Positions 2,643-22,595 of a stretch of DNA of 64,000 bases are shown in pieces (the first letter of the stretch is position 1; every line of letters begins with the position of its first letter). The DNA is from Pararhizobium capsulatum DSM 1112. Lineage in GTDB: Bacteria > Pseudomonadota > Alphaproteobacteria > Rhizobiales > Rhizobiaceae. The translations under genes were made by a program, and so were the position numbers. Location: assembly GCF_030814475.1 (NCBI RefSeq), contig NZ_JAUSVF010000001.1:3354001-3418000 (forward strand), written 5' to 3'. A model generated the notes under the pieces. The model searched no databases. It was not told the DNA's origin and worked only from the letters and a program-made list of their open reading frames with translations.

Positions 2643-3710
2643 ATGACAAAGCCGCCTCACCCCCCTCGATCAAAGCCGTTGCTCCGCGACGACGGCGGGC
2701 CGTTGCAAAGTCGGACGATCAATAAGCGGAATCCAGCGCAACCACGATTGCCGTTCGATCCCTTGCCGTCGCGGATCGAACCTGCGCTTGCCTCCCTGAA
2801 ACAAACGCCGCCGGCGGCGGGCAATTGGGGCTGGGAAGTAAAATGGGACGGCTATCGTTTGGCAATCCACGTCAGCGCCGCGGGCGTCCAAATCCTAACG
2901 CGAGGCGGCTATAATTGGGTCGATAGATTTCCAGCAATAGAGAAAGCCGCCCGCGATCTCGGGCCAACATCGATGATCCTAGACGGCGAGGGTGTCGTTC
3001 TCGATGAACAAGGACGGTCGGATTTCAACGCCCTCCAGACCTCCCTCGGGGCCGTCGGCCGACGTAGCGGCAACAAGACGGCTGGCAACGCGATCTTCTA
3101 CGCGTTCGATCTTCTGTATCTCGATGGCCACGATCTGCGCGGCCTCGAATACAGCGAACGGCGGCATCTGCTTGATGATACCTTGCGAGGGTTCGACGGT
3201 GCCATTCGCATTTCGGAAGAAATCGAGGCTGATCCCGCCGCCCTCCTTGAACATGCCTGCCGCCTCGGGCTTGAGGGCATTGTCGGCAAGAACCGCGATA
3301 GCCGTTATAGAAGCGGCCGAACTGGCGATTGGGTAAAACTGAAATGCGTCCAATCGGAACCGTTCTTCATCGTCGGTTATGAACCGTCCAAGGCGGCACC
3401 TGGCGGCTTCGGTTCGCTTCTCCTAGCCGCCTATAAAGGCGACGATCTCGTCTATGTCGGGTCGGTCGGCACTGGTTTTAAAGAGCGTGTCGCCCTCGAT
3501 CTCCGTGCTATATTCGACAAGCTGGCATGGACGCGGAAAGCACCGCCTATGGCATACGACGGCAAGCGGGCGGTGGTATGGGTCCAACCAACGTTGATTG
3601 CAGAAATCGAGTTTCGGCAATGGACACCTGACAACAAACTTCGCCATTCCGCTTTCAAGGGACTGCGGGAACAGGAAGACAACGCCAGCGTTTACCGAAT
3701 GGAACATTGA
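2643..3710 (+). CDS. ATP-dependent DNA ligase (LigC/LigD ligase-domain type)
   Basis: The 355-aa protein carries the nucleotidyltransferase motif I EVKWDGYRL with adenylated Lys67, then motif III-like YAFDLLYLDG, motif IV LEGIVGKN and motif V DWVKLKC, followed by an OB-fold domain. It seals nicks through an AMP-lysine intermediate. It has only the ligase module of LigD, with no polymerase or phosphoesterase domain, and no ku gene is nearby, so it is a LigC-like stand-alone enzyme. The ATG at 2643 was chosen because the longer upstream extension has no family similarity. Confidence 0.85.
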   Translation: MTKPPHPPRSKPLLRDDGGPLQSRTINKRNPAQPRLPFDPLPSRIEPALASLKQTPPAAGNWGWEVKWDGYRLAIHVSAAGVQILTRGGYNWVDRFPAIEKAARDLGPTSMILDGEGVVLDEQGRSDFNALQTSLGAVGRRSGNKTAGNAIFYAFDLLYLDGHDLRGLEYSERRHLLDDTLRGFDGAIRISEEIEADPAALLEHACRLGLEGIVGKNRDSRYRSGRTGDWVKLKCVQSEPFFIVGYEPSKAAPGGFGSLLLAAYKGDDLVYVGSVGTGFKERVALDLRAIFDKLAWTRKAPPMAYDGKRAVVWVQPTLIAEIEFRQWTPDNKLRHSAFKGLREQEDNASVYRMEH

Positions 3711-4070: not shown

Positions 4071-4832
4071 CTAAATTTCCACAACGAGCGCGGGCTCGAA
4101 GCCAGTATTTTCTCCGGGATATCCACGGGGATTGGATACGATACGCGTGTCGGCAATGGTGTAGTCGGCGCGATGATGCACATGACCATGCACCCAGAGC
4201 GTAGGCCCGGTCTGGCGAATGAGGTCTTCGAGATCAGAGGCATAGCAGGCCGAGAGCGGGTCATGGCGAAACATGGCCGCAATCGAACGCGGAGACGGCG
4301 TATGGTGAGTGACGACCACACTCTTCTGGCCACCGCGCTTGCGGAGTTCGGCAGCGATGAAGTCCCTCGTCTCGACGTGTTTTCTGTAGGCATGCAACGG
4401 CCTGAACTTGGAAAACGGGTCTTTGGACAACTTGATCTTTTTGAAGTCGTTCATTCCGCTTTGGGCATATGACATTGCGACCTGTGGATCGTGTCCGAAA
4501 AGCCGGAAATCGGACCACAGCGTGCCGCCCACAAAAAACACACCATCGATCTCCACGCCTTCATTTTCCAGGAAATGAAGATCGGGGTAGCTTGCCATCT
4601 TGGCGTCGCGCAGGCTTTCCTGCAACGACGCGCCATAGAACTCGTGGTTTCCCGCCACGAAGACGATCGGTATCTTGAGAGCCATTCTTTTGGTCAGCCA
4701 CGCCAGGCTTGGAAGTACACCTTTTATCAGCACGTCGCCGGCGCAGACCATAACGTCCGCGTCTGATGGCGGCTCAACGTTGAAAGGCTCACCAAATTCT
4801 AGGTGAAGGTCAGAAACGATCCAGATTTTCAT
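4071..4832 (-). CDS. Calcineurin-like metallophosphoesterase
   Basis: All metal-binding blocks of the family are present in 253 aa: SDLHLE (D8, H10), AGDV (D33), GNHEFYG (N62, H63), VVVTHHTPSP and HGHVHHRADY near residues 215-224. Such enzymes use two metals to hydrolyse phosphodiesters or phosphomonoesters; substrate is not predictable. It is the last gene of a minus-strand operon, 3 nt after the 330-aa gene. A truncated relative lies at 7801-8103 at the other end of the same cassette. Confidence 0.9.
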   Translation of the reverse strand: MKIWIVSDLHLEFGEPFNVEPPSDADVMVCAGDVLIKGVLPSLAWLTKRMALKIPIVFVAGNHEFYGASLQESLRDAKMASYPDLHFLENEGVEIDGVFFVGGTLWSDFRLFGHDPQVAMSYAQSGMNDFKKIKLSKDPFSKFRPLHAYRKHVETRDFIAAELRKRGGQKSVVVTHHTPSPRSIAAMFRHDPLSACYASDLEDLIRQTGPTLWVHGHVHHRADYTIADTRIVSNPRGYPGENTGFEPALVVEI

Positions 4833-4835
4833 AGG

Positions 4836-5828
4836 CTAAGCCATGCTCCATCGGGATAAAAACGGGAATTCTGGCAAATATCGGCTGGCAAACTTCATCC
4901 TCATATCGAGGGCGACCGGGTCAAACTGGAAATACAGAGTGCGCTTGGATTCCTCAAGGGAAAGCCACCCACCGTCCAACCGCCATCGCTTGCCAAATAG
5001 GCGATCAATGTCCATGCAGCTCAAAGACCGCAGTGATCGCAAGGCATCGTCCCGCGTTTTCGGAGTGGGCGCATGACGTTCGGCAACCTCCAGCCATTCT
5101 ACGATGTCCTGCTCGGGAATGCTGGCCAGCTTCCTGATCTCCGCGGCTATGTCCTTCGGCACATCGGCCACCGCTGCTTTGCACGCCTCAACGAAACGGG
5201 GGTCTTCCGTGTAATCAATCCTCCACTGCTCGGGGTAGACACGCCAGAGAATCGTCTCCGCCTGCTCTGTCCACCGACCGTCGAGGATTAGTCCAAGAGT
5301 CTGGAAAACCTGAAACGCCCGTGGTTCGAGGTAGGCCGGACCGCTGCCATGGGCCGCGAGGATGTTGGGCCCGGGAAGGCCTACTGGATTCCGTCCGCCG
5401 CGAGTTCCAGCGAAGTGCCGGTAGCCTAAAACACTCGATTTACTGGACAGCCAAACGACGGCCGTTGCGATATCATCCCAGCGCGGCAGGTTCGCGGGCA
5501 ATTTAGGTTGGGCTACAGGCTTCGCGCCTCCCGTTACTTCAACGGCGTGCCCGAGGGCAATCAAAGCCTGGCACGCCACCTCAAACGCGCCGATGGATAA
5601 ATGGCTCCAACCCCCATCCGGAGCGTTTGGAAGGCTTTGCGCTAAAGACTCGGCGACCGGGCCTACCCAATCTGGAAGCGGAATTGGTTTTGCGACCACT
5701 CCTTTGCCAACGACGATTCGATGAAACAAAGGTTCGAAGCCGATTTCGTCAAGCGCTTCCCCCAGGGAACCAGGCATCGGTTTCCCGCCCGTCTTGCGTC
5801 TGGATGATTGTGTGCGTTTCGCCATCAT
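4836..5828 (-). CDS. Unknown 330-aa protein of the protease cassette
   Basis: I do not recognise the family. The N-terminus is basic ([18 protein letters not shown]), the middle carries an alanine-rich helical block, and a conserved-looking [19 protein letters not shown] segment sits near residue 150. No signal peptide or membrane segment is visible. Its ATG overlaps the stop of the FtsH-like gene by 4 nt, so translation is probably coupled, and the metallophosphoesterase follows 3 nt later. The context suggests a partner or substrate adaptor of the protease, which is only inference. Confidence 0.7.
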
Positions 5829-7820
5829 GTACCCGTCCTCGGTTGCGTTTTCGCAAGACTGACGGCGGTCCGCCGATAACGGCGGATAGTTTCGACAACC
5901 TCCTCACCCGTCATCGTCTTGACTTCCACGAGGCGGTTTACAAGCTCCTCCAGCGCGCGTCGCTGAGCCTGAATTATAGACGTCGCTCTTCGTAGCTCCG
6001 CCTCCAGAACCGTATGGACCTCCCTGCGAAGCTCGGGATGGTATGTTCGCATGGCAGCCAACTCGGCCTCGGTGAGCCCTCCCACCATCAGCGTGTGCCC
6101 CATGCCCAGGGACCCTTCCACCGCCGTGGCAAGATCGGTCGCCCGGTTTAGGTCAGCACTACTTGATCCCGCCCGCCGTCTCCAAACGAACCAAAGACCT
6201 CGATTTCTGCGGCGATACCCCCCAAGCAGACCGCAATAGCGTTCTCGTAGTGCGTTCGCGTCTTTCGTTGCGCTCCTGCGTGCTCGTATTCAACGTAACC
6301 GAGCACGCGATTTTCGGCGTTGATTCGATAGCTCGAGATTTTCATGCCGGTGACGTTGCCGTGCCCTAGCTCGAAACCCACAATTGCGTGGCCCGCTTCG
6401 TGGACTGCCAAAGCGCGGATATATTCGTCCGGTAACGCAGACATGGGACGAAGCTTGCTGATTATGTGTCGACCGCTGACTTTTTCCGATTGACGCCGGG
6501 CAGAACGTTTCGCGTCCTTGACCAGTAGCTCGATATCGGCTCCGGACAAACCGTCCGTCGCGAGATCAAATTGCTCAACCTCACCGACATCGAGCGTGAT
6601 GCCGCTATGAAACGTCAGGATCGATTGACGAGCCTTGGCGTCTGGAAATCCGACCTCGATGTGTCGGTCAAGCCGCCCCGCCCTCCTGATCGCGCTATCC
6701 AGCTGGTTCGGAAAATTGCAAGCGCCGACCACCACAACACCTTGTCGGGGCTCAAATCCGCCCAGCAGTTCCAAAAGTGTTGCGATGATAAACCCGAAAT
6801 AAACGTCGTGCCGGTCCCTTCCACCCCGAGAGCCAATGGTGTCTATCTCGTCGATAAATAGTATGGCGGGCGCATTAATCTTCGCTTCGTTGAACGACGC
6901 TCGCGTCGCCTTGATGGCATCGTCGAGGTGGCCGGCCTCCAGCCACTTTGATACCGAACCGTACACAAGCGGTACGTCGCAGGTATTGGCGAGTGCACGC
7001 GCGAAAATGGTTTTTCCGACCCCGGGCGGCCCCGAAATCAAGACCCCGGCGTGGACATCGCTCCAAGGAACTAGTCCGGCTTTATAGTTCGCTAGGTCGT
7101 TCGCGAGTTCATGGCCCCACTCCATGAGCTCCCCATAACCGTGCAAGTCAGACAATGTCAGGCCGACGGGCTTGGGCTTAACGAGCCCTTCGGCAGTCGG
7201 CATTCGTTTCGGAAGACTTCGCAGCCGCTGAAAAGCCTGCAAAGGATCGCGTCGATCTTGGAAAGCCTTATAGAGGCGCGGCCACGGTTCGGTTAGCAGG
7301 AGCTCGACATTCTCACTGACTATCGGAAGTCCAGCCCGCCGAAGTGCGGCCTCGGCATGCCTTTCTGTTCGAGAGCCAAGTGGCACCACTGCATCGCAGA
7401 GGAGGCGGTCGTCGTCTTTGATTTCGTAGCCGACCGGCGCAAAGAATATCGCCCTCTCGTCGCGCAGGGCCTCGGCTTCGTTTCGAAAGGCTTCTCGCTC
7501 CATTCGAAGACATTGGATTGGAACACCGTGGTCTTCCAGATTTGCGAAGCGAAGTGGCGGGCAGCTTCCGCAAAAATGGGGAAATAGAAGTCTTCGTTCG
7601 CCACCAGCGTCAGAATGGCCTTCGTATCGATCCTGTTCCAGGATCGCAGAGCATCAGCGACTGCGCAGTAGGCCATGAAGGCCGGTAGCGTCAGAGCCTC
7701 GGCTTGACCGTTTCGGACCATACGCCATGGCACACGCGATTGTTTTCCAAACCGGTTCTTCGGCATGGACACCCCCAATTTATTGAACTCATCAATCCAG
7801 TTAGTAAAATCGACCGCCAT
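5825..7820 (-). pseudogene. FtsH-like AAA+ ATPase / M41 zinc protease with two frameshifts
   Basis: Three frames join into one protein of about 660 residues. The first (from ATG 7820, MAVDFTNWIDEF...) has a novel N-terminal domain. The second carries Walker A GPPGVGKT, Walker B ILFIDEID, the second region of homology AIRRAGRLDRHIEVGFPD and the zinc motif HEAGH. The third carries [14 protein letters not shown], including the expected third zinc ligand, and a helical tail. Frame breaks lie near 7540-7565 and in a C/G tract at 6168-6178. There are no membrane helices, unlike true FtsH. Broken gene, sequencing error, or (for the second break) programmed shifting are all possible. Confidence 0.75.
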
Positions 7821-8909: not shown

Positions 8910-9896
8910 TTTGTCGGCGGTCCGCTAATCCAAATTTGGATGCATGCAATACAGCCCGCCCTTCGCCTTACAGTTGTGGTACAGGTGCGAGCCGGCAAAG
9001 GCGGTGCGCCAGCTTGTATCTTTTAGGAGGGCATCGGCTGGCTGATCGCCCGCTGCCACGCATCGCCTTCACCACCAATGCCGAAAAAGGAATCCGCTGA
9101 CGCGGATGCTTTACTGCTCGCCCGTAGAGTGATCAGCGGCATGGCATATCAAAGGGCGTTCGGTGGCGTACGAAACCTCCTCGCATGGATATCAAAATAT
9201 TGAAGCTGCCCGCCGCCACCTCATCGCCAGTTTCGAAATTCGTGGCCTCGCAATTACGCCGCTGGCTTCAAGTTTTGTCCGCAAACCGCGGCTAATCTTT
9301 CGCCCGCAACAGTTTTCTCCCAGTTCAGGCTGGGCCCAACCGAGCAGGGCCCGAGCCGCCTGGATAAGATTGACCGTCAAATAAATTGAGGTCGCAGCCG
9401 TCGTCGGTCTCCGTGCAGCGTAGGGTGGTCGCTGACGACCGTGACGCAACAAAGGCGTCGTGTACGAGCGGTATTCAAAAATCCCGGCAACTGTGTCATT
9501 CTACGATAGATCCGCTAACTGCCCCCTCGCGGGCAACCTCGATCCCGGGGGCGAATCGGGAAATCCAGCAAAAGACCTTCGGAACATCAAAACTGACTGG
9601 TTTGTCGACCAATTCGTCGCCCAAAATCACTGGCATTTCGCGCAGAGGCTTGCCTCTTCAACAAATCGAGCGCGGCCGGTCGACGACTCGACCCATCGAC
9701 CTTTCGGTCCCAAGCCGATTCTGCACATTATCGCGAGAGCAGCCCACGCCCGATCCCAAAATCAGGGCCGGCAACCGGTTGAATTATCAAGATTTTATGT
9801 TATATTCACGGTCGACAGAGGTACAATGAAAGAATTGGCCCTGTCGCCCAGGAGCACCGGCAAAACGGGCGTGTCCGACACAAAATCCTGGAAAAA
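8910..9896. other. Decayed accessory DNA left of the integrative element
   Basis: No intact gene is supported here. A 41-codon plus-strand frame at 9078-9203 (MPKKESADADALLLARRVI) looks protein-like but is unproven. The XRE remnant is listed separately. From about 9400 to the element boundary at 9897 the frames have no motifs or ribosome binding sites. Confidence 0.45.
9192..9380 (-). pseudogene. Remnant of an XRE regulator
   Basis: From a TTG at 9380 the frame reads LTVNLIQAARALLGWAQPELGE, the standard opening of small rhizobial XRE regulators, but the recognition helix is then lost and the frame continues into KLEASGVIARP, where the family normally has ALEASGVEFI. One or more small indels are needed to restore it. 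Confidence 0.6.
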
Positions 9897-9912
9897 GTGG
9901 TGGGCCCGGAGG
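9897..9912. repeat. attL: 16-bp copy of the tRNA-Ile2 3' end
   Basis: GTGGTGGGCCCGGAGG here is identical to 22519-22534 and the sequences diverge immediately on the inner and outer sides. It corresponds to the CCA end, acceptor 3' strand and start of the T stem of the tRNA. Confidence 0.85.
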
Positions 9913-10182: not shown

Positions 10183-11511
10183 TTGACCCTACCGACAAAG
10201 TTCCCTGAGAATTATTGGAATCATAAAAAGCTATCACGGCGAGAACGGACAGCCTTACGTGATACGGCAGCATATATCCTTCAATCCGAAAACGGTCGCG
10301 GACGAGCAGTCTGCGCATGTGGACACTCGGGCAAAGGCACCAAAGTCGTCGCTCTGTTCCTGAAGAGTGATGGGACCGCCGGAACCAATGGAACACTTCG
10401 ATGCGGATCGCCATGGCTTTGCGCAGATTGTGCACCGTTGAAGGCAAACCAACGTCTGGAGCGGCTTCAAGACCTGGCGAATGCTCTAGTTACAGAAAAC
10501 GGGAAAATGGCATCGATCACAATTACTGTTGGTCACGATAGAGCCTCCCATTTGCAGGACATCAAGCAGGCAATCGAAACAGCGTCACGAAAGGCACGAC
10601 AGGGGGCTCCATGGGAACGGCAGAAGCTTCGGCACGACGTCATCGGGGTCTTATCCGCTCCAGAGGTGATATATTCACTAAGACACGGTTGGCATTTCCA
10701 CATTCACCATGCCTTTTTAACTGGGGAGACAGGGAACTCCGAAGAATTGGGTTGGTGGTTTGTTCGGCGATACCTCAAGTATCTGGCAAGCGCGGGCTTT
10801 ACCGCCAACATCCAAAGCCAGGAAGTTTCAATGGTACGCGACCCGAGACGATTTTTTACCTATTTGAGAAAGGGAGTCACACGGTTGGCGCAGGATGTGT
10901 GGGGGCTGCGTAAACCTGGAAAACTCAGAGATAAACATCTTTATCCATTCGATATTCTCCAGAAAGCGTCTGGATGTAAAATCATGAAATCCCTTTGGAA
11001 AGAATACGCGGATGTCATGCCCGGAACACGGTCATGCGTATTGACCCGGTCGATAGCGGTTCGTCTGAACATCAATCAGGACGACGATACTGCAGAAGTA
11101 GCGCACGAACATATAGTAGGTCAGCTACCTGCACCTACCTGGAAAGTGCTCGTAAACAGACGCAAAACAAATGTCATCTTGAGCCTTCTCGAAGATCGTG
11201 GTGCAGCAGCATGGCAGGAAATCTGTTCGCTGGCTCTAACTTTGGCGGCAGAAAAGTCCTCGATCAATGCCGTCCAGACCCAGGACAAAATTCCTACAAA
11301 GACATTCGAGCATCGGCCGAGTGCAGCGCAGGTTGCAAATTTGGCGCTTCATTATAAATGGCATCTCACCCGTAAGGAGCGAAACGGCGAAGCGATCAGG
11401 ATTGCATTAGATCGAGAACGTGGCCATGCGGTAGCCAATGGCCTTACCTTTTATCCGCCTAAAATCAGGGACGTTCTCGAAATATACGGCAATGAAGGCG
11501 TCTGCTCTTGA
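10183..11511 (+). CDS. Rolling-circle replication initiator (HUH Rep, Rep_1-like)
   Basis: The 442-aa protein has an N-terminal zinc-type cluster (C44, C46, then C74, C80, C83), the HUH metal motif WHFHIHHAFL (about 170-179) and a likely nicking tyrosine in FFTYLRKG (Y227, K230). Such proteins nick one strand at the origin and start rolling-circle replication. The TTG start at 10183 is supported by a perfect AAAGGAGG at 10168-10175, 7 nt upstream. Its presence on a tRNA-integrated element suggests the excised circle replicates. Confidence 0.85.
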   Translation: MTLPTKFPENYWNHKKLSRRERTALRDTAAYILQSENGRGRAVCACGHSGKGTKVVALFLKSDGTAGTNGTLRCGSPWLCADCAPLKANQRLERLQDLANALVTENGKMASITITVGHDRASHLQDIKQAIETASRKARQGAPWERQKLRHDVIGVLSAPEVIYSLRHGWHFHIHHAFLTGETGNSEELGWWFVRRYLKYLASAGFTANIQSQEVSMVRDPRRFFTYLRKGVTRLAQDVWGLRKPGKLRDKHLYPFDILQKASGCKIMKSLWKEYADVMPGTRSCVLTRSIAVRLNINQDDDTAEVAHEHIVGQLPAPTWKVLVNRRKTNVILSLLEDRGAAAWQEICSLALTLAAEKSSINAVQTQDKIPTKTFEHRPSAAQVANLALHYKWHLTRKERNGEAIRIALDRERGHAVANGLTFYPPKIRDVLEIYGNEGVCS

Positions 11512-11840
11512 TAGACGGGCACGGCCCAATGTCTGATAGCGGTCAAACCATCCAAAACGGCTTTACAGTTATTGCGACCAAGCATCGTTGCGCGGCCGCT
11601 TGGCATTTGACCGAACCAGTTGTTAGCCAAGCGCGAACTGGTATCGCAGGGTGCGTTTTCTGCCATTTCATCGAAACAGAGGTCCTGGTATGTTGAAGCC
11701 GCTGAGAAGACTTACCTACGCCTCGCAGATTTGCGCGAGACGTAGGCGCGCACTTTAAACGACAGCCAGATATTTCTGTTTCGGCTCAATTCGGGTAGAT
11801 TTTGACCTTAAAATCGAAAATCTCTTTCCCGCCTTAGCAG
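11512..11840. other. 329 bp between rep and the membrane-protein gene; imperfect hairpin
   Basis: No supported gene. A hairpin at 11715-11746 (CCTACG/CGTAGG plus CTCGC/GCGAG, one mismatch) may be a terminator for the two convergent genes or a replication-related structure. A 62-codon frame at 11508-11696 overlaps the end of rep and shows no motif. Confidence 0.4.
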
Positions 11841-12419
11841 TCAATTTCGCCGCCTTAGCAGCTTCGAAGCGGCCAGTATTAAAGGCACCCCGACTATGAA
11901 CTGGGCCGCGACTCCGCCAGAAATCCAACCGATAGCAGCCATCTTGATCGTGCCACCATCCATAGCCCCAACAAGCCAAAGCCCACCAAAAAACCACATA
12001 GCTGAAGCCGTGGACTGGATTATGCCTGCCCACCAGATATACCGCGCCACATCGACAGGGCCACGGAGCCGCCAGTCGCTACGATAAACCCGATAAATTA
12101 GATATGGGAACAAGACGCCAAAAAGATTGCAAAAATTCAGTACCAAGGCAAAGGCGGAAAATCGCCCGGTAACTGCGGCTGCGGCGAGTAATCCAACATA
12201 AATCGCCGGAAATGCTGCACGGCCGCCCGCAAGCGCTGCAAGTGTAATTATCGGCGCACCGACGTAGAATCCTGACACCCCAAACACCGCCCAAGGAAAC
12301 TGGACCACTCCAACTAGATCAGCTGCAAATGTGATCGTGGTGATTAGCACCCCATTTACAATTGTGCTCGTCCATCCCTCCGCTGATTGCAACTCAGAAG
12401 TTTCGATTAGATTTCGCAT
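11841..12419 (-). CDS. Polytopic membrane protein, MASE1-like or ECF-S-like
   Basis: The 192-aa protein has about five to six hydrophobic helices; the order GGRAAFPAIYVGLLAAAA ... FALVLNFCNLFGVLFPYLIYR ... WISGGVAAQFIVGVPLIL is reminiscent of the MASE1 sensory membrane domain, where a glycine-rich loop precedes a last VGPLL-type helix. An ECF-transporter S component is an alternative. There is no attached signalling domain. It starts 12 nt after the AsnRS-like gene, so both are in one operon. The resemblance is from pattern only. Confidence 0.6.
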   Translation of the reverse strand: MRNLIETSELQSAEGWTSTIVNGVLITTITFAADLVGVVQFPWAVFGVSGFYVGAPIITLAALAGGRAAFPAIYVGLLAAAAVTGRFSAFALVLNFCNLFGVLFPYLIYRVYRSDWRLRGPVDVARYIWWAGIIQSTASAMWFFGGLWLVGAMDGGTIKMAAIGWISGGVAAQFIVGVPLILAASKLLRRRN

Positions 12420-12431
12420 TAATGAATCCCC

Positions 12432-13346
12432 CTACGGCATTGATTTCGAAAAAGGGTACAGACCGCCAATTTTACTGCTCTGCAAATTAAGCGGATAGGG
12501 CACGGCATCAACAATGTTTTCTAGGCCAAGGAAACTCTGCAAAAGACGCTCGTAGCTAAAACCGATCAATGCAGAGGGAGAAGAAATTTTCTTCAAGCTA
12601 AAATCCAGGTTGCGGATAATTTCTTCAACACCAGGGTCAGATGCGAATGCCGATGACTTATAAGAGCTGATTAAGCGTTCTTGATCGAGTTCCAATCTAC
12701 TCCCGGTCCCTACTTCTCCCGAGAAAGGAAGGATCACTTCGAAGAGCGACGATGAGGTCTCGTCACTGACAAACTCGTAGCGAAACGGCTCTGTTGACTT
12801 GGGCTTATTGGTCAGGATCACAGCCCTGTTTCCGTTCGCTTCAACCAGGCGTAGCTGGTCAGCACTACTGAGATCACGATCAGCGGGAATTTCGCTTGCT
12901 TCGCACGCTGTCGCAAAATCGAAATGTGCAAAATCGAGAACTTTACCTATACCAGCAGAAGCCTCCCAATTTCGCCATACGAAGGAAATCAAGTCCTGAA
13001 AAAGCTTCTTCGCTCGATGTTCATCCCCCGGAAATACAAGGGATACGTAAGTAAATTCAAGAAGCCTATTTCGTCCCTCTTCCGGCCTAAAAACGCGCAT
13101 TGTACTATATACTTTTCCGACCAAAGCGGACGAGGCTATTAGACAATCCAAGTTACCTTGAGAAAGCTTAAGTTTAGTTCCGGACAATTCCGCATTTATG
13201 GAAGCTCTATCACCGTCATTTTCTCCAGACCTTTCCAGTGTTGGGGGGTGTACTTCTATTGCCCCGAAGTGGTCCATCCACGATCTAGTAGCCGCGAGCC
13301 CCGAAGAATAAAGCTTGATCAAATTACCTCTATCAATAAGGCTCAT
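12432..13346 (-). CDS. Asparaginyl-tRNA-synthetase-like catalytic core paralog
   Basis: The 304-aa protein is a class II aminoacyl-tRNA synthetase core of the AsnRS/AspRS type without an anticodon-binding domain. Motif 1-like FGAIEVHPPTLER (27-39), motif 2-like VFRPEEGRNRLLEF (85-98; R87), the ILTNKPKSTEPF and SGEVGTGSRLE blocks (177-188, 209-219) and motif 3-like GFSYERLLQ (262-270; R267) are all present, with GLENIVDAVPYP after. Adenylate chemistry is plausible since the two key arginines remain. Comparable stand-alone cores include the archaeal AsnRS-related asparagine synthetase. Substrate and role here are unknown; the neighbours are a membrane protein and a divergent nucleotidyltransferase. 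Confidence 0.8.
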   Translation of the reverse strand: MSLIDRGNLIKLYSSGLAATRSWMDHFGAIEVHPPTLERSGENDGDRASINAELSGTKLKLSQGNLDCLIASSALVGKVYSTMRVFRPEEGRNRLLEFTYVSLVFPGDEHRAKKLFQDLISFVWRNWEASAGIGKVLDFAHFDFATACEASEIPADRDLSSADQLRLVEANGNRAVILTNKPKSTEPFRYEFVSDETSSSLFEVILPFSGEVGTGSRLELDQERLISSYKSSAFASDPGVEEIIRNLDFSLKKISSPSALIGFSYERLLQSFLGLENIVDAVPYPLNLQSSKIGGLYPFSKSMP

Positions 13347-13417
13347 TTCCTATCCCTCCACCAATTATTGCATCAAATTACTTTTTGTATAAAAATGCAA
13401 CTAGAGGGAATCTAAGA

Positions 13418-14206
13418 ATGCTAAAAAAACTTATCCGCGTCGCCATCGGCGACATTATACCGAACCTGGCAGATGGAGGCCGCATCGACGAAGAAGTTCT
13501 GGAAATTTGCATCCGGTGTAAAGAACATCTATTCCTCCAGCTTGGAATTGATGTCCAGACACTTTATGTCCGTGGCTCTGTCGCCATAGGTTCAGATGTC
13601 CCAATGTATTCCGACTTAGATTTGGTCGGTTTTTGCAACTCTACAAGCTACGACAAAGCAGAAGCAGATGTGATTGTTCGTCGAATCGGCGAAAGTTACA
13701 GTCGATTTTCGTTGATCGACCTTCAAATCGTGTGCGCCCCACACGGTGTCGCACTCTCGAAGAACTTACAGTTATTCTATAACTTAAGTTTGCAGCGTAT
13801 TTTGGCGGTTGGTCCGGACATTATGGCGACGATACCTAGAATAACAAGCACAACATATCTACACAGAACAATTTACAGTGAATATTGGCTGGAGTCGAAT
13901 AAAATAAAGGAGTATATATTAAAAGGAGTACCTTTCAGCTACGCTGGGGAACCGAGAGGCCCTGATTTTTTGGCACGATGGTATGCCCGCCTTTTCCTTA
14001 GATTGTCAGTGATGCAAATGTACAAAAATACAGGCTATTTAGTGAGCGATCTTGAAACCTGTGCTACGATATGTGCAGCTTACCGACCAGAGCATGCTCA
14101 AGTCTTCGAGGAATTTTTCGTTGCAGAAAGATTTCCACCGAAAGACCCTCGGCAAGTTTTAACTTTGATTGCCGCTGGATTATCTTTGTCGCGCGAGCAT
14201 TGGTAA
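13418..14206 (+). CDS. Pol-beta-superfamily nucleotidyltransferase
   Basis: The 262-aa protein has the family signature: RGSVAIGSDVPMYSDLDLV, with G53-S54 and metal aspartates D66 and D68, and a third acidic residue in LIDLQIV (D101). A helical C-terminal domain follows, as in aminoglycoside adenylyltransferases and related enzymes. It would transfer a nucleotide to a small molecule, protein or RNA. The ATG at 13418 follows AGAGGGA at a good distance; an upstream TTG at 13385 is less likely. It diverges from the AsnRS-like gene with only about 70 bp between starts, suggesting shared control. Confidence 0.8.
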   Translation: MLKKLIRVAIGDIIPNLADGGRIDEEVLEICIRCKEHLFLQLGIDVQTLYVRGSVAIGSDVPMYSDLDLVGFCNSTSYDKAEADVIVRRIGESYSRFSLIDLQIVCAPHGVALSKNLQLFYNLSLQRILAVGPDIMATIPRITSTTYLHRTIYSEYWLESNKIKEYILKGVPFSYAGEPRGPDFLARWYARLFLRLSVMQMYKNTGYLVSDLETCATICAAYRPEHAQVFEEFFVAERFPPKDPRQVLTLIAAGLSLSREHW

Positions 14207-14383
14207 TTCACTGTTCGTCATGTTTTTCCCCAATCATATTTCGGCCAGCTCTTTCGAAAAGCTTAAGTAAGTTATCGTGTCATTCGGCGATTGCCAGTAA
14301 ACCTTCTGACCTGCTTGTCTGCGTTCATAAGTTAGCTCTGCTCATTTTCTGGTCCTGCACCTGGACCGGGCTACACACTCGCA

Positions 14384-14569
14384 ATGGGGAGAGCCTTTGA
14401 GGCTCGTACGCGGGCGGCCATAGTCACTTCTCCACACTTAGATAATCTGCCTCGCATGGCAGTAGCTGGTGAAGAGGTGCTCGTTTTGGCGATCAAAATG
14501 GCAGACAAGGAACGCACTCATGCGGCTGCATAGGACCTTGCGTTCTTTCTACAGAGGATAGAAGACGTT
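14384..14569 (+). pseudogene. Small broken frame left of the serine recombinase
   Basis: From ATG 14384 the frame reads MGRAFEARTRAAIVTSPHL ... MADKERTHAAA, meets TAG at 14531 and continues in frame as [18 protein letters not shown] into the recombinase end. Composition looks like protein on both sides of the stop. I do not know the family. The remaining sequence from 14207 to 14383 shows nothing. Confidence 0.35.
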
Positions 14570-15298
14570 CTAGGAATCTACGGTGGTGCGCGGGGCCGTA
14601 TCGGCAGCGTTTTCCGCATAAACGACAGCGTTTGGGCGATCTAAGGCACGCTTTACTGTCATAGCAGCCCATCCCCCACCACGAGCAGTTTTTATGCCGC
14701 GCTGGTTGAGAACTTCGGCCAAGGCGCGGAACGTTACCACGCCCTGATCCTGCAACTGCTTTACCACCGGCAGGATATTGGCGGCGAATGCGTCGGCAAT
14801 CATTGCGTTCCGCGCCGCGCCAAACAACTGGGCTTGCGTAAGATTAGTTCGATTGCCGAGAGCAGCACCGGCTTTCTTTTTTGCCTGGAGCGCTTCCCGG
14901 GTACGCTTTGAGATGAGCGCTCGTTCCTTTTCAGCCAGCGCAGCATAGAGATGCAGCATAAAGGGATCGGCGTCTGCACCTAGTTCGGTCACGATGAACG
15001 GAACGCGTTGCGCCATGAGCCCGGCGATAAAAGCTACGTCGCGTGAAAGCCTGTCGAGCTTGGCTACAATAACAGGGACCTTTGTCTTCCGGGCGATCCG
15101 AAGGGCTTCGGAGAGGACTGGACGACGGTCAAGTGCATCAAACCCCTTGCCCGTCTCCACTTCCTGGAACCAGTCTGTGACGACAAGACCTTCCGCTTCT
15201 GCAAACCGCTCAATGTTGGCACGCTGGGCTTCAAGACCCAGTCCACTTTTGCCTTGGGCCTGGGTAGAAACGCGGACGTATGCGATGGCTGACTTCAT
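14570..15298 (-). CDS. Serine recombinase (resolvase/invertase family)
   Basis: The 242-aa protein begins [22 protein letters not shown] with catalytic Ser11, followed by [22 protein letters not shown] and [18 protein letters not shown], and ends in a helix-turn-helix region ([26 protein letters not shown] is the recombinase-type linker). Length fits a small resolvase. It could resolve multimers of the excised circle or be a later passenger. It is on the minus strand with 156 bp before the next gene. Confidence 0.85.
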
Positions 15299-15454: not shown

Positions 15455-16357
15455 TCAGGCTTTGGAAATCTGCCATTTTGCGAAATCAACAAACACATAG
15501 GAAAACCAATAAAGTAAGATTGGAACCAAAAGTGCAAATAATGGCTCTGACCCACCGATTCGAGACAGATTGAAGTTTGCGCGTGCCCCCAGATTGTGGA
15601 ACGTTCGGTTCCGTACAGTAACAACGAATGAGCCGACATCCTTGAATGGAACCGAAAAAATTCCGTTCTCCTCGTCGATCACCAAGGTTTTTATCTCCGG
15701 TAGGATTATTGTCTTGAATTCATCAATGAGTGCCGTTGCAAGATCGTCTCCCAGCTCTGCCAAAGAAAAATCTAAAGTCGCTCTCGCGAAGCCCTCATTC
15801 AACCCAGTGTAGTGCTGTAGAAATTTTTGTAACATGCCAAGCTCACCTGGAGCTTTTTTCTCATCATAAATACTTGAAAGAAAGCTATGTGCGTGCCTGA
15901 AGTCCTTGTCATTAGAGACGTAGATGAGAGGACATGCGGCCGAAATTCTTTCAAGTATTCTATATGTGTAAAGGAAGCTCTCAGTGAATTTTTGCTCTCC
16001 GAGAGACTTAAGTAGAAATCCAAGCTCCGCAAGAATCTCAATATAAAAGCCTTTATTGAGAATTCTAGCTCTGCGAAAAAGTGAGGCAATCTCATCTTCG
16101 TCTGGGCGTTCTTCAAAAATATAGTCTAGAATCCGGTCAATCTCATCTAAAGCAATGTCATCGCCAGGATTTATAAAGTTTTGATTTGCCTCGTAGAGGA
16201 CTTCATCCGTTCCGTCATCGCGAAGGTGCGCTGTCCCAGACAAAAGGCGCAATATTTTTATGATCTCCGGCGGCTCACTCGCGAGAAGCAACGAAGGGCT
16301 GCAGGAACCCACTGGGACTTCGAATTTTTCGACCATTCTTAATTTTATGACGGACAT
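15455..16357 (-). CDS. Helical protein with HEPN-like R-x4-H motif, partner of the DUF262/DGQHR-like protein
   Basis: The 300-aa protein is mainly helical with a middle stretch ESFLYTYRILERISAACPLIYV and, near the C-terminus, TVRNRTFHNLG, an R249-x4-H254 arrangement that matches the catalytic motif of many HEPN ribonucleases. A hydrophobic helix (about 275-290) follows. No family name is certain. Its ATG shares one base with the upstream stop (TAATG), so it is translationally coupled to the DGQHR-like gene. A toxin or RNase role is an inference from the motif and the pairing. Confidence 0.65.
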   Translation of the reverse strand: MSVIKLRMVEKFEVPVGSCSPSLLLASEPPEIIKILRLLSGTAHLRDDGTDEVLYEANQNFINPGDDIALDEIDRILDYIFEERPDEDEIASLFRRARILNKGFYIEILAELGFLLKSLGEQKFTESFLYTYRILERISAACPLIYVSNDKDFRHAHSFLSSIYDEKKAPGELGMLQKFLQHYTGLNEGFARATLDFSLAELGDDLATALIDEFKTIILPEIKTLVIDEENGIFSVPFKDVGSFVVTVRNRTFHNLGARANFNLSRIGGSEPLFALLVPILLYWFSYVFVDFAKWQISKA

Positions 16358-17394
16358 TAGTTAGCCGTCAGTTCGAAAAATACTTCTGTCAGTTGTTCCT
16401 CGCGCGCGTCCTTCAAGTCATCGATATTTTCGATGAAATGCAAAGATAACTCTCTCCTGTATTTACCGACATTTACCTTCGACGGGTTGATGGCTTGAAA
16501 TGCCGCTTCGAAAGCAACTATACATGAGGCGAAATGATCGGCGGTGAGTTGGCTCAGTTCGGGATTTGACTTCTTAGCACCCAGAGTGAAGCCAATCAGA
16601 TTATTTTCATTCCGTAGCCAATCCTTCGCAATATTGTTTGCCGACACTCGGTCAACCTGTGTCAGGACATCCGTAAAGCTTGTCTGCTCGGATGTAAGGC
16701 CTGATTCCATCACTTTTCCGACAAGGATTTCATCGAGTTTTTCTTCAATGAAGCGTGAATTCTGATTGTTCGGCCCCCCGGTAAGGAAAGCCAAGTAGGC
16801 AGACGCTACGTCCACCATGCGAAAACTACCTTTAGGCGAGTTCTGCTCAGTTTCCTTTTCTTTCAGGATAGTGATGTTTTGCAATGCACCATCACCCACC
16901 ATCTTGCCTATGAGATTGCCAGTCAGCATCTCCACCTGGTGGCGAACAGTCATCGGCTTTTGACCGTTGTTAAGGGTGATCATGCGATACAGGAGGAGAT
17001 CATACTTTTGTGCGATTATGACATTCACGAAAATAGGCCGGGCCGGATCAAAGCCATCCTCTTGGCTTGCAGCCTCTAGCGTGTTCAGCCGCTGCATTCC
17101 ATCGAGTACATATCCTTCACTGATATTGTCTCGAATGAAATCAGATATAGCGTCGATATCGACCTCCGCAGACATCGCCTCATTGACAAAGGCGAGCGTT
17201 ATGGAAGGCATTATGCAACCCGCAAGAATGTCTTTTTTCAACCTGTCGTAAAAACGCGGGCGTTGAAGTTTGCGCTGCTCCTCGAATCTATCAATAAGGG
17301 GGTAGAACCGCTCAAGCGCATCCTCATATGTAGTGCGCCCGCTAATCACCGCGCTCTTGATTACTTCGTCTCGCCTGACGTCAAAAAGGTCCAT
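16357..17394 (-). CDS. ParB/DUF262/DGQHR-superfamily protein
   Basis: The 345-aa protein contains YVLDGMQRLNTLEAA (D98, R102), close to the DGQQRLTTL signature of DUF262 (N-terminal half of GmrSD-type enzymes) and to DGQHR proteins such as DndB, plus ITLNNGQKPMTVRHQVEML, the second conserved block of the group. In known systems these domains bind or hydrolyse nucleotides and often regulate a DNA-acting partner. Here the partner is the HEPN-like protein. The 248-bp region between this gene and 17643 is the probable divergent promoter. Confidence 0.75.
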   Translation of the reverse strand: MDLFDVRRDEVIKSAVISGRTTYEDALERFYPLIDRFEEQRKLQRPRFYDRLKKDILAGCIMPSITLAFVNEAMSAEVDIDAISDFIRDNISEGYVLDGMQRLNTLEAASQEDGFDPARPIFVNVIIAQKYDLLLYRMITLNNGQKPMTVRHQVEMLTGNLIGKMVGDGALQNITILKEKETEQNSPKGSFRMVDVASAYLAFLTGGPNNQNSRFIEEKLDEILVGKVMESGLTSEQTSFTDVLTQVDRVSANNIAKDWLRNENNLIGFTLGAKKSNPELSQLTADHFASCIVAFEAAFQAINPSKVNVGKYRRELSLHFIENIDDLKDAREEQLTEVFFELTAN

Positions 17395-17642: not shown

Positions 17643-17951
17643 ATGACACTGACAAATCGGGATGCATCGCTGGTTTTGGGAATGTCGATGAGAGGCGACA
17701 AGAAGCACGACATCGCCGCTTGGTTCGGCGAGAACCAGGCACGGATCGCGGAAGTTGAGCAAGGACAATTTGGAAGCGTCTCCGCCGCGCCAGCGAACGA
17801 GCTTCCTCCTAAGGGTGCGCCTGGTCCAAAGGGGCGTCGTCTTCGGGGCAAGGTAACAAAAGCTGTGGAAGCCTTGGAGAAGAATGACGTCGCGACAGCG
17901 ATGCAGTTGCTTAAAGATGGACTCGCCGACTTCGCCAAAAATGAAGCTTAG
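17643..17951 (+). CDS. Small conserved rhizobial HTH-like protein
   Basis: The 102-aa protein has a helix-turn-helix-like part, VLGMSMRGDKKHDIAAWFGENQARIAEVEQG (read as residues 11-41), then a proline/glycine linker and a helical tail. Similar small proteins occur widely on rhizobial plasmids and islands; their function is not established to my knowledge. It overlaps the end of the convergent methyltransferase gene by 4 nt. Confidence 0.7.
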   Translation: MTLTNRDASLVLGMSMRGDKKHDIAAWFGENQARIAEVEQGQFGSVSAAPANELPPKGAPGPKGRRLRGKVTKAVEALEKNDVATAMQLLKDGLADFAKNEA

Positions 17952-18565
17952 AGATAGTCTCTAGGGCGCTCCAGCAGTTTTCGACAAGGCGGTATCCAGG
18001 CAAGCCGAGGACCAGTCCGGTCTTCGGCTTTGCTCCAGACGAACCATGCGTATCCGGTTGCAGTGGAAGCTTTTTGATCTACGCGGCCCTTTACCATTGG
18101 AACGCGCTCCGAAAATTGGGCGAAAACAGATGGCGGCTTATGCCGAAAGATCGTTTCATATCTCCCAATACTTTCGAGAAAGACCGTCCTTGCTAGAATC
18201 GCTACTCCGACCCTCGCTACATCCAATGCCTGGTGAACGAATTCCTCTGCCAAACGAAACGGCGGGTTTGTGATGACCCAGTCATAGCTACTGCGCCGAC
18301 AGGGCGAGGTCAAAAAGTCTCGGATCGGGCCGAAGCCATAATGGTACGCGTCGGCAGAATCCACCGATGAAAAATACTCTGCCAACGGACGGCTCATGTA
18401 ACCCCTGCCACATGCCGGTTCCAAACAGGACATGGCTTTGACACCCTCAACGCCGACAACGTGCTCAATGAGCGCCCTGGTGGCCCATGGAGGGGTTGGA
18501 AAGTCGTCTGGACTGTCAGCGGCTTCATACCGTTGTGCCATCACAGCGTGGGATGTGTTTTGCAT
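17948..18565 (-). CDS. N6-adenine-type DNA methyltransferase-like protein
   Basis: The 205-aa protein has motif I LEPACGRGYM (48-57) and catalytic motif IV NPPF (100-103), preceded by DDFPTPPWATRALIEH, an opening I associate with phage and plasmid methyltransferases of rhizobia. There is no cognate restriction gene beside it. ATG 18565 follows ACAGGAATCAGTA and is preferred to 18637. A role in protecting the mobile element from restriction is plausible but unproven. Confidence 0.75.
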   Translation of the reverse strand: MQNTSHAVMAQRYEAADSPDDFPTPPWATRALIEHVVGVEGVKAMSCLEPACGRGYMSRPLAEYFSSVDSADAYHYGFGPIRDFLTSPCRRSSYDWVITNPPFRLAEEFVHQALDVARVGVAILARTVFLESIGRYETIFRHKPPSVFAQFSERVPMVKGRVDQKASTATGYAWFVWSKAEDRTGPRLAWIPPCRKLLERPRDYL

Positions 18566-18740
18566 TACTGATTCCTGTGAGACTTGACCACCGGCAGCGG
18601 TGGCATGCCCATACCCGCCTTTCGTACAAATTAACATCGCTACTTTGTTTGAAGCTGATCACGTCGGCTATTGTAGCCGATGAATTTCCGGACAATCCTT
18701 GGTGTAGGCACAAACTTACCAGGGGCCTGCGGCTGCCAGC

Positions 18741-18811: not shown

Positions 18812-19099
18812 TTGACCAAGAGCGCAATTGTAAAAATTCGAATTTCAAATGCTGACAAAGTGCGCCTGGAGCGTTTTGCGGATGAAGCCGGGAAATCCGT
18901 CTCCGAGATCGTCCGTTCTGCCATTAACGAAACCACACGAGGACAGGTTGCCGGTCAACAGCGGCGCGAAAATATCGCTAAACTGCGCCGTTCAACGAAC
19001 CTCATGCTTGAAGCCTTCGCTGGGAAGCCCATCGATATCCCGAAGCTCAGGGATATCGCGGCGCAGGTGCGTAAAGATGCCATCAGGGCTCTAGCATGA
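18812..19099 (+). CDS. MobC-like relaxosome accessory protein
   Basis: From a TTG at 18812, with AGAAG upstream, the protein is 95 aa: a ribbon-helix-helix N-terminus (VKIRISNADKVRLERFADEAGKSVSEIVRSAI) and a helical tail ending in the MobC-like AAQVRKDAIRALA. Such proteins bind oriT and help the relaxase open the DNA. An upstream ATG at 18680 would read through the hairpin region and was rejected. The stop overlaps the relaxase start (ATGA). Confidence 0.75.
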   Translation: MTKSAIVKIRISNADKVRLERFADEAGKSVSEIVRSAINETTRGQVAGQQRRENIAKLRRSTNLMLEAFAGKPIDIPKLRDIAAQVRKDAIRALA

Positions 19100-20826
19100 T
19101 TTGCGACATGATAATCAAAGCTCTCCGTTTTCTGACGAAGTCGAACGTGAACAGGCTGATAAGCCACCTCCGGAACGGCAACGACAACGATGCCGTTGAG
19201 TTCGTCAGCGGGACGCCAGCGGATATCACCGACATGCGTATTGACGCGTTGGCGAAGCGCTCAACATATTCGATCCGGCACTGGGTCGTGGCCCCGCACG
19301 AAGCCACAACAAGGGCGCAGATGCGGGAGGTCGTTTCCATGATTGCCGGAGAATTCGACTTCGACCCAGGGCGAGCGGTGATCATCGAGCACAGGAAGTC
19401 GCGTGTGACCTCAGACGCACATTCCACCCATTGGCATGTACTGGTCGGTGAAATTGATCCTGCTTCAGGTAAGGTGCTTAGATGCTCTTTTGATCGCGTT
19501 ATTCACGAACTGGTCGCTCGGTGGTCCGAATACAAATTTGGGCACAAGTTTGTGCAGGGAAATCATACAAAATCGGTGATCGGTGGACTGCGAAAACGCG
19601 GTGCTGTCGATGCCGCGTCAAGCGTCGAGGCTCAACTTGGCGGAGCGTTGCCTCCATCGGGAGAAGCTTTTACGCATGCCGAGCATCAGGCAAGGAAAAG
19701 AGCCGGAACCGATCTCCCCGTTGTCAGGCAGGCGGTGAAGCACGCTATGTCGATAGCGACCACAAGAGCTGAACTGGAATCTATTCTGTCCAGTTCATCT
19801 TTGCTCGTCATGCCTGGCGACAAACCAGACACATGGATCGTAACCGACGGAGGCGGCGAGTTCATCGGCTCTCTTGCGCGCCTAGCCGGAAGCAGAAAAT
19901 CAGAAATCACAAAAGTCATGGGAGCAGCCGGTGATGAGCCAGCCAGTAGAAAGACAGACAATCCAACAAGCAATTTTGACCGAAGCGCGAGTCATCCGCA
20001 GCCTGCTGGAGCCACAAAGCGACCAACAAACGCCCGGCCCCCAAGTCCTTATCGAGATACAGTTCAAAATCCTGGAAGCTCTCGAAAAGGTGTCGAGCGA
20101 GATCGAGAGCATCAATCAGAAACTGGATTACCCCAAAAAGGCAACCGGGACGCCTTAAGTTGGTTAGCAAAACTTGATGGATACAGTGATCAGCTCTCTT
20201 TGCTTCTCGGCAAGGCGAACATGCTCTCTATGCCCCAGGAAGAACGTATTATTGCGTCTCTCTGGGAGATTGAGGAGCAAGCGCGTGCCGATCTCAGTAG
20301 GCATATTCCTGTCCTTGATTATTCTGAAAAGACCCAGCGCCTGCGGGTCGAAGCCGCAGACCTGGAAGAAAGCTCAGCCAAGAAATGGGATCAACTCTTC
20401 TGTGCCGAGGAGCGACTCCGCAAGGCCAAACGGCCGAGATGGTGGCATTACCTATTAGGAATTGCTTTTGTTTTCGAGCGTCAGCATCGGCACCTGGCGT
20501 TAGTGACTCAGCAAGCCTCTGACGAACTGGAGGCTTGCAAGCACTGCCTGGAGGCAGTGAAATCGAAGCTGCTTCAGCAAGAAGTTCACGACAAACAGCG
20601 GCATGCCGATCTTGTTCGATACATAGCTCAGCGAAAGAAGGCTGCTGGCCCAACTCTTGCGCAGGTTGATGCTGCGAATGAAATCATTCGCCTTCATCCA
20701 GCACTCGCATTCTGTGGTCTCAATTTCGTTCTCGCCCGGGCGACCGCCCAGGTCGATGAAGAAAAGCGAACCGAGGCGAAAGTGGCCAGAAACCTCGATG
20801 ATGATGGGTTCGGCTATAAGCGGTGA
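19096..20826 (+). CDS. Relaxase (MOBP/VirD2-like)
   Basis: The 576-aa protein has an N-terminal relaxase domain with RHWVVAPHEA (61-70), IEHRKSRV (97-104) and the histidine motif STHWHVLVGEID (H112, H114), followed by a positively charged linker and a long helical C-terminal region with a hydrophobic RPRWWHYLLGIAFVF segment near residue 450. It would cleave oriT and pilot the strand into a recipient through a helper type IV system. Translation is coupled to mobC. Confidence 0.8.
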   Translation: MICDMIIKALRFLTKSNVNRLISHLRNGNDNDAVEFVSGTPADITDMRIDALAKRSTYSIRHWVVAPHEATTRAQMREVVSMIAGEFDFDPGRAVIIEHRKSRVTSDAHSTHWHVLVGEIDPASGKVLRCSFDRVIHELVARWSEYKFGHKFVQGNHTKSVIGGLRKRGAVDAASSVEAQLGGALPPSGEAFTHAEHQARKRAGTDLPVVRQAVKHAMSIATTRAELESILSSSSLLVMPGDKPDTWIVTDGGGEFIGSLARLAGSRKSEITKVMGAAGDEPASRKTDNPTSNFDRSASHPQPAGATKRPTNARPPSPYRDTVQNPGSSRKGVERDREHQSETGLPQKGNRDALSWLAKLDGYSDQLSLLLGKANMLSMPQEERIIASLWEIEEQARADLSRHIPVLDYSEKTQRLRVEAADLEESSAKKWDQLFCAEERLRKAKRPRWWHYLLGIAFVFERQHRHLALVTQQASDELEACKHCLEAVKSKLLQQEVHDKQRHADLVRYIAQRKKAAGPTLAQVDAANEIIRLHPALAFCGLNFVLARATAQVDEEKRTEAKVARNLDDDGFGYKR

Positions 20827-21237: not shown

Positions 21238-21417
21238 ATGAAGAACTCAAAGGTGATTACCAAGGCCGAAATCGCTCGTGCCGCAGACGTAGCCAGGACT
21301 GAAAATGTGACAATTGAAATTGAATGCGTTGACCGGATCATTCGTGTAAGCCCAGCGGCTCCGCTTTCATGGACAATGAAGTCGGCTTCCTCCAGTAGTC
21401 GCGGGGTGGTACTCTGA
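21238..21417 (+). CDS. 59-aa integrase-coupled small protein (excisionase-like position)
   Basis: The frame MKNSKVITKAEIARAADVARTENVTIEIECVDRIIRV ends in TGA whose last base is the first base of the integrase ATG, so the genes are translationally coupled. Small proteins of similar size and pattern (ITKAEIARA..., then a beta-like VTIEIE...) often precede rhizobial tyrosine integrases. It could act as a directionality factor, but no such function is shown. No strong Shine-Dalgarno precedes it. Confidence 0.65.
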   Translation: MKNSKVITKAEIARAADVARTENVTIEIECVDRIIRVSPAAPLSWTMKSASSSSRGVVL

Positions 21418-22511
21418 TGCCTCGCACGCTCCCCCTCTATGTCACTAAAGAAAAATCGCGGCACGGCAAAATCGTCTTCTATTTCAGAATTGGAAAAGGA
21501 GAGCGAATCCGTTTGCCTGGTTCTCCGGGTTCGAAAGAGTTCAAGGTAGCTTATCAAGCTGCGTTGACCGGTAAACATCTTGTGCAGCCTCATTACCAGG
21601 AATATGCCCGTTCACTACGCTGGTTGGTCCGCAGATACATGGAAAGCTCCGCCTGGGCTTCCCTTAGCGTTGCCACCCGGAAGCAGCGGGGGAATTTCTA
21701 CAGCCAGGTCATCGAAGCCAGCGGCGACGTCGATTGCCGAATAGTAAGAGACAAAGACATCAGGCAAGCCCTGGAACGGCGGCGAAATACACCGTCATCC
21801 GCAAACAACTTCTTGAAGGCTATGTCGGCGCTGTTCAAATGGGCGCTCATTCAGGACTATGTTGAAACTGACCCTACGGTCGGCGTGAAACGCCTGAAGG
21901 TGAAAGATTCTGACGGCTTTCCAATTTGGACCATCGATGAAGTCCACGCATATATGCGACATTGGCCTGTAGGCACCCGCGAACGATTGGCCTTCGAACT
22001 ACTCATAGCATCGGGCCTGCGCAGATCAGACATGGTTTTGGCAGGGCGTCAGCACCTGAAAGATGACGTCTTCTCAATCAGGACAGCAAAAACGCGAACG
22101 CCGGTCACACTGGAATTCTCCGCGAGAGTTTTGGAAATGATCGAGAAAACAGAAACAGGTGATTTCGCGTTTATTGTCGGTAGAAAAGGTCGACCTTTAA
22201 CGAAGGAATCTTTTGGAAATTGGTTCCGTGAAGCGTGCCGTGCCGCCAATATTCCCAAAAGTGCGCACGGCCTCCGAAAATTTTCTGCAACACTCGCGGC
22301 AGAAGCCGGAGCGACGACTCATCAGCTGATGGCGCAATTTGGCTGGGTGACGGTTCAACAGGCTGAGCTGTACACGAAAAGCGCTGATAGAGCGCGACTG
22401 GGCAAAGACACATCGCGCATTGTGGCAGAACAAATCGAGACTATCCTTGCCCCGCACCTTGAGCAGGGTGCGGGAGAAAATTCAATTAAACAAACGAAAA
22501 CAAAAGGATAG
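21417..22511 (+). CDS. Tyrosine-type site-specific integrase
   Basis: The 364-aa protein has all catalytic residues of the family: R202 (ASGLRRSDM), K226 (RTAKTRTP), H284-x-x-R287 (SAHGLRKFSATLAAEAG), W310 (AQFGW) and nucleophile Y319 (QAELYTKSA). The central SAM-like core-binding domain is at about 60-160. It lies 8 bp from the attachment core in the tRNA gene and would catalyse integration and excision of the element. Confidence 0.92.
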   Translation: MPRTLPLYVTKEKSRHGKIVFYFRIGKGERIRLPGSPGSKEFKVAYQAALTGKHLVQPHYQEYARSLRWLVRRYMESSAWASLSVATRKQRGNFYSQVIEASGDVDCRIVRDKDIRQALERRRNTPSSANNFLKAMSALFKWALIQDYVETDPTVGVKRLKVKDSDGFPIWTIDEVHAYMRHWPVGTRERLAFELLIASGLRRSDMVLAGRQHLKDDVFSIRTAKTRTPVTLEFSARVLEMIEKTETGDFAFIVGRKGRPLTKESFGNWFREACRAANIPKSAHGLRKFSATLAAEAGATTHQLMAQFGWVTVQQAELYTKSADRARLGKDTSRIVAEQIETILAPHLEQGAGENSIKQTKTKG

Positions 22512-22518
22512 AATTTGA

Positions 22519-22534
22519 GTGGTGGGCCCGGAGG
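22519..22534. repeat. attR: 16-bp core in the tRNA-Ile2 3' end
   Basis: Identical to 9897-9912. The tRNA remains complete at this end of the element, so insertion did not destroy it. Confidence 0.85.
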
Positions 22535-22595
22535 GACTCGAACCCCCAACCAAGCGGTTATGAGCCGCCGGCTCTAACCATTGAGCTACAGGCCC
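22520..22595 (-). tRNA. tRNA-Ile2 with CAU anticodon (decodes AUA after lysidine modification)
   Basis: The minus strand folds into a standard cloverleaf: acceptor GGGCCTG/CGGGCCC, D arm GCTC...GAGC, anticodon loop CTCATAA, T loop TTCGAGT, discriminator A and encoded CCA. The sequence around the anticodon (GGCGGCTCATAACCGCTTGG) matches the Ile2 type rather than tRNA-Met. It is the insertion target of the mobile element. Confidence 0.92.

Follow-up and report, generated by a model that had tools for sequence, protein, structure and literature searches.

Synthetase catalytic cores doing other jobs are already known as a kind. Free-standing cores with new chemistry include AS-A and HisZ (PMC9437257) as well as AsnA, HisZ and GenX/PoxA (PMC3532385). 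Here we describe a further candidate of this kind from Pararhizobium capsulatum DSM 1112, located in a window of 64,000 nucleotides (NZ_JAUSVF010000001.1, positions 3,354,001 to 3,418,000 of the forward strand), to which all coordinates below refer. A class II synthetase-like core, P0001, is encoded there divergently from a nucleotidyltransferase, P0004, within a 12.6-kb integrative element (Table 1). The nearest relatives of both proteins are apparently together in one other genome, and we therefore regard the two enzymes as probably working as a pair, one that has not been described before. A literature survey covering titles and abstract openings, with few subscription journals, found no such enzyme pairing among the papers listed.

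An earlier note on this DNA had described P0001 as a 304-aa class II core with motifs 1-3 and no anticodon domain, and our data agree. Residues 8-286 match PF00152 (E 5.8e-16, 58.9 bits at a cut-off of 25 bits), whereas an anticodon-binding domain was not matched in Pfam, where the only other row is a zinc knuckle at noise level; the protein is without translation-type architecture. P35 of motif 1, R87, E89 and E97-F98 of motif 2 and E266-R267 of motif 3 align with the reference Asp/Asn/LysRS, with Ser in place of the second Gly of motif 3. For the active site we aligned twelve sequences, namely P0001, its relatives P0002 and P0003, the AspRS, LysRS and EpmA of the host and six relatives of asnS length. 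All twelve have in common the two tweezer arginines (R87 of motif 2 and R267 of motif 3), E97-F98, an acid at position 203 and E211, and the flipping-loop acid is present in 11 of them, LysRS having Gly. Class II enzymes bind ATP by an arginine pair (PMC7387524), and in human AsnRS R322 of motif 2 contacts the phosphate, E324 the adenylate and E279 of the loop the asparagine (PMC10831071). The equivalent of E324 is Glu in P0001 and P0003 and Ser in P0002, and position 102, an acid in all nine references and in P0003, is Ser in P0001 and P0002.

A further change lies at position 218, which is Leu in P0001 and P0003 and Ile in P0002, in contrast to Arg in 7/7 Asp/AsnRS references and Glu in LysRS and in the EpmA of the host. 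We take the Arg of Asp/AsnRS to be the residue of the GGSxR element that contacts the Asx side chain. Because this position is changed, asparagine is probably not the substrate of P0001; judged from the residues retained, the adenylating centre may well work, on a different substrate. The designation as AsnRS type therefore stands for the fold, as P0001 has the class II core fold and AsnRS structures match it better than AS-A (among the matches listed), but not for the side-chain position. The profile search suggested at the time gave asnS (TIGR00457) as the best NCBIfam match with 36.6 bits against a cut-off of 342.6, and 17.0 bits against 368 for archaeal-type asparagine synthetase A (NF005052), both far under the cut-offs.

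P0004 matches no Pfam family, and its relative P0005 reaches NTP_transf_2 at the 21-bit cut-off. The signature of Pol-beta-type enzymes (G53 S54, D66, D68 and D101 in the 262-aa numbering) is identical between the two proteins. The three acids claimed for a divergent nucleotidyltransferase are thus kept in P0005, but the start has to be revised: it is probably ATG 13418 and not TTG 13385 of the 273-aa frame, because AGGGA lies upstream and a related protein measures 263 aa. The nearest solved nucleotidyltransferases among the matches listed are antibiotic-modifying enzymes, at very low sequence similarity, and the ANT(4') model NF033061 gives 13.1 bits against a cut-off of 350.

In a search of about 5.8 billion proteins, which works on shared 5-residue words so that more distant relatives may exist, P0001 found only P0002 (44% identity, 99% coverage) and P0003 (28%), and P0004 only P0005 (37% identity, 91% coverage). 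With such identities over nearly the whole length, neither enzyme frame is a chance product. P0002 and P0005 carry identical contig data, three contigs each with a longest contig of 137,599 bases; the listed sources are ena for P0002 and lgn and ena for P0005. Since these figures coincide for the nearest relatives of two very rare proteins, the genes for P0002 and P0005 are very likely co-located, and two of the three genes that the earlier note had combined into one module probably recur together. The third gene encodes the hydrophobic protein which, as claimed, follows 12 nt after the synthetase-like gene and, from its hydropathy, is probably multi-span. Its only match in the same search was itself, nothing useful came from the PDB, and, as this orphan has no relative found, a three-gene unit including it is not supported. 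On its minus strand, the spacer between the enzyme genes has two promoter-like matches that overlap each other; over 11500-14600 there are 6 such matches versus 3.6 in shuffles (standard deviation 2.0), which is not clearly above chance. Besides, an inverted repeat TTGCAT...ATGCAA (13368-13400), seen by eye in this spacer, is a possible operator or a product of chance.

The synthetase-like protein is very rare. Among 101 genomes of relatives it was matched in its own genome and in none of the other 100. The alignment of P0001 and P0002 (A3), used as query, matched 8/385 genomes of the class, 2/397 of the order and 58/398 of the phylum, own genome included. Among the other seven class matches, L010-L014 were taken as asnS references, L009 was left out as its match crosses a stop, and L008 resembles an asnS cut by the contig end. 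The order match G802 lies in a frame of 391 aa, and the 57 other phylum matches are nearly all located in frames of 467-524 aa, a length to be expected of asnS, with exceptions of 335, 754, 754 and 1269 aa. The genome contigs set held no relatives for the single-protein query or alignment A1, and viral contigs none for A1, A2, A3 or P0003. In phages, tblastn returned nothing for the nucleotidyltransferase and three records for the synthetase-like protein. The best of these, MT835501.1, has a normal full-length frame resembling asnS, and the other two are from Listeria (E 0.01). Plasmids yielded 27 records for P0001, with asnS annotation in 14 of the best 20 of 27, and none for P0002 or P0003; P0004 had one record and P0005 two, all of them annotated nucleotidyltransferase genes. 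P0003, from a Solirubrobacteraceae bacterium, may differ from P0001 in function, as its relationship is more remote and an archaeal-type AspRS model gives it 38.1 bits, against 22.9 for asnS.

We tentatively favour the reading that the synthetase-like and nucleotidyltransferase genes form a divergently transcribed two-enzyme small-molecule module, which combines acyl activation with nucleotidyl transfer. The synthetase-like enzyme would i) use ATP to activate an acid (carboxylic or amino) different from Asp/Asn and ii) hand the activated acid to a non-tRNA acceptor, and iii) the nucleotidyltransferase would attach a nucleotide to this small molecule or to one related to it. In consequence, a toxic small molecule would be modified or neutralised, or a signalling one tailored, from which the host or the element would profit.

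The strongest competitor, though rather unlikely, is a translation-directed toxin-antitoxin or anti-phage module, in which the nucleotidyltransferase extends the tRNA 3' end in a MenT-like manner or produces a signalling nucleotide, with the synthetase-like core as guard or sensor of that target. MenT nucleotidyltransferase toxins lengthen tRNA acceptor stems (PMC10435456), P0001 keeps the class II core fold of tRNA synthetases, and the mobile element that carries the compact divergent pair also has a DzbA-like defence gene, some 2 kb away from the nucleotidyltransferase. Weak PADLOC oligonucleotide-cyclase matches in relatives of the nucleotidyltransferase (P0006, 1.1e-4; P0005, 0.034) point in the same direction. 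In contrast, PADLOC models match neither the two window enzymes nor the membrane protein at E values up to 1, the relatives match the NCBIfam MntA antitoxin model at noise level (0.05, 0.07), and the closest solved nucleotidyltransferases noted above modify antibiotics. A defence role of the enzyme pair is possible because the DzbA-like gene sits in the same element, and of the evidence for the defence or immunity function proposed earlier this neighbour is what is left.

It is also conceivable, but unlikely, that the two enzyme genes adjoin by accident as independent cargo, since islands gather unrelated genes. The orphan membrane gene would fit such a history, as would the lack of a synthetase-like neighbour beside nucleotidyltransferase relatives in 6/6 loci checked. 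An alignment of the nucleotidyltransferase (A4) matched 4/385 class genomes, own included; at the three other loci the immediate neighbours were read by eye, and these genomes are not among the class matches of A3. A blastp comparison of about 18-19 kb around these three loci with the element proteins found nothing, which is weak evidence because the nucleotidyltransferases themselves were also missed. Accidental neighbours would, however, hardly be expected to have closest relatives that share contig number and longest-contig figure, and the divergent spacer is just 71 bp.

A further reading, distinctly unlikely, is a novel mobile module for immunity or signalling, where the re-tooled core makes an acyl-adenylate or an acylated tRNA end, the nucleotidyltransferase converts or controls the product, and the membrane protein possibly serves as effector. 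An asparagine or amide synthetase of the archaeal AS-A type, whose core would couple activated aspartate to ammonia, is improbable: Leu/Ile occupies the position of the Asp/Asn side-chain Arg, the model score is far below its cut-off, and AsnRS structures are the better fit among the matches listed. Finally, descent of P0001 from a decaying asparaginyl-tRNA synthetase gene of the host, for which asnS as top NCBIfam match could speak, is very unlikely because the other three of the four PF00152 proteins of the host are AspRS, LysRS and EpmA, with AsnRS not found in this search, and because one small FastTree of the same twelve sequences, with six references of asnS length, joins P0001 with P0002 (0.999) and then P0003 (0.999) apart from the asnS group; moreover, the reading frame is uninterrupted and its product shares 44% identity with P0002.

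The carrier of the small-molecule module favoured here is an integrative element, which is probably mobilizable. The earlier claim of mobile cargo is borne out by an integrase, a relaxase-like gene, an att repeat with exactly two occurrences in the genome and an empty site in one relative. The tRNA-Met flank was matched in 26/26 genomes of the genus, own included. Among nine relatives compared, one (G004, L042) shows the empty site, where sequence resembling the left flank (window 9843-9912, 80%) continues directly into the tRNA and the flank on its right (window from 22518); the left-flank match extends about 53 bases past the core, and the other eight relatives gave no left-flank match.

Table 1. 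Features of the integrative element and its enzyme genes (window coordinates).
Feature	Position	Strand	Remarks
attL, 17-bp repeat of tRNA-Met 3' end	9896..9912	+	exact repeat
phrog_11698-like protein adjoining attL, PHROGs function unknown	10183..11511	+	2e-28
Hydrophobic protein, 192 aa	11841..12419	-	12 nt downstream of synthetase-like gene; hydropathy peaks
Class II synthetase-like catalytic core P0001, 304 aa	12432..13346	-	PF00152; anticodon-binding domain not matched
Spacer separating the divergent enzyme genes, 71 bp	13347..13417	.	ribosome-binding-like site at either side
KNT-like nucleotidyltransferase P0004, 262 aa	13418..14206	+	start probably ATG 13418 in place of TTG 13385
Serine recombinase (resolvase) adjoining enzyme pair	14570..15298	-	PF00239 6e-25
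DzbA-like protein of the Dazbog anti-phage type, carried as separate cargo	16357..17394	-	PADLOC DzbA 3.4e-49
MobA/VirD2-type relaxase-like protein	19096..20826	+	PF03432 1.5e-4, 22.5 bits, curated cut-off 24.6
Tyrosine integrase	21417..22511	+	PF00589 1.4e-14
attR, 17-bp repeat at 3' end of tRNA-Met (22520-22595 -)	22518..22534	+	exact repeat

A protein similar to the one adjoining attL, called rep-like as a guess, occurs in 6/151 genomes, own included. As three longer loci of this kind have that protein alone in common with the element, at the blastp sensitivity used, they show no cargo slot. Dazbog is an anti-phage system including a DUF262 component (PMC10952713). A 300-aa gene (15455-16357, minus strand) overlaps the DzbA-like gene by one base and may be an unrecognised DzbB-type partner; its best PADLOC match, Cas11b (5.8e-5), is unconvincing. 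A methyltransferase-like protein (17948-18637, minus strand) covers positions 184-393 of 458 of the DNA methyltransferase phrog_799 (3.8e-53) and is possibly N-terminally truncated. Just left of the element lies an IetA-like AAA ATPase (6148-7503, minus strand; PADLOC 5.4e-21), followed by genes at 5825-6121 and 4836-5828 and then a phosphoesterase-like gene (4071-4832), and an NHEJ-type ATP-dependent DNA ligase (2502-3710, plus strand; TIGR02779 1.3e-95) is also located left of attL.

In comparison with known systems, P0001 resembles the archaeal AsnRS-related asparagine synthetase A (3p8t, 3rex) in being a class II core of about 300 aa that stands alone, and EpmA/GenX, the EF-P lysine ligase, in being such a core of class IIb type in a bacterium. 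It differs from class IIb AsnRS in the unmatched anticodon-binding domain and, together with its group, in Leu/Ile for the side-chain Arg and Ser/Cys for the second Gly of motif 3, and from EpmA/GenX at position 218, the host already carrying an EpmA of its own with Glu there. P0004 is likewise distant in sequence from kanamycin nucleotidyltransferase and ANT(4'). As in MNT/HEPN and MenT systems, a Pol-beta-type nucleotidyltransferase on mobile DNA has a partner gene next to it, but the partner here is synthetase-like and not HEPN or a known antitoxin, and there is no family-level match. The synthetase-like core described here is thus very rare, mobile and changed at its substrate position, and it seems to travel with a nucleotidyltransferase. 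Finding its substrate would add another non-translational use of the Asx-synthetase fold, perhaps with a new resistance or immunity chemistry.
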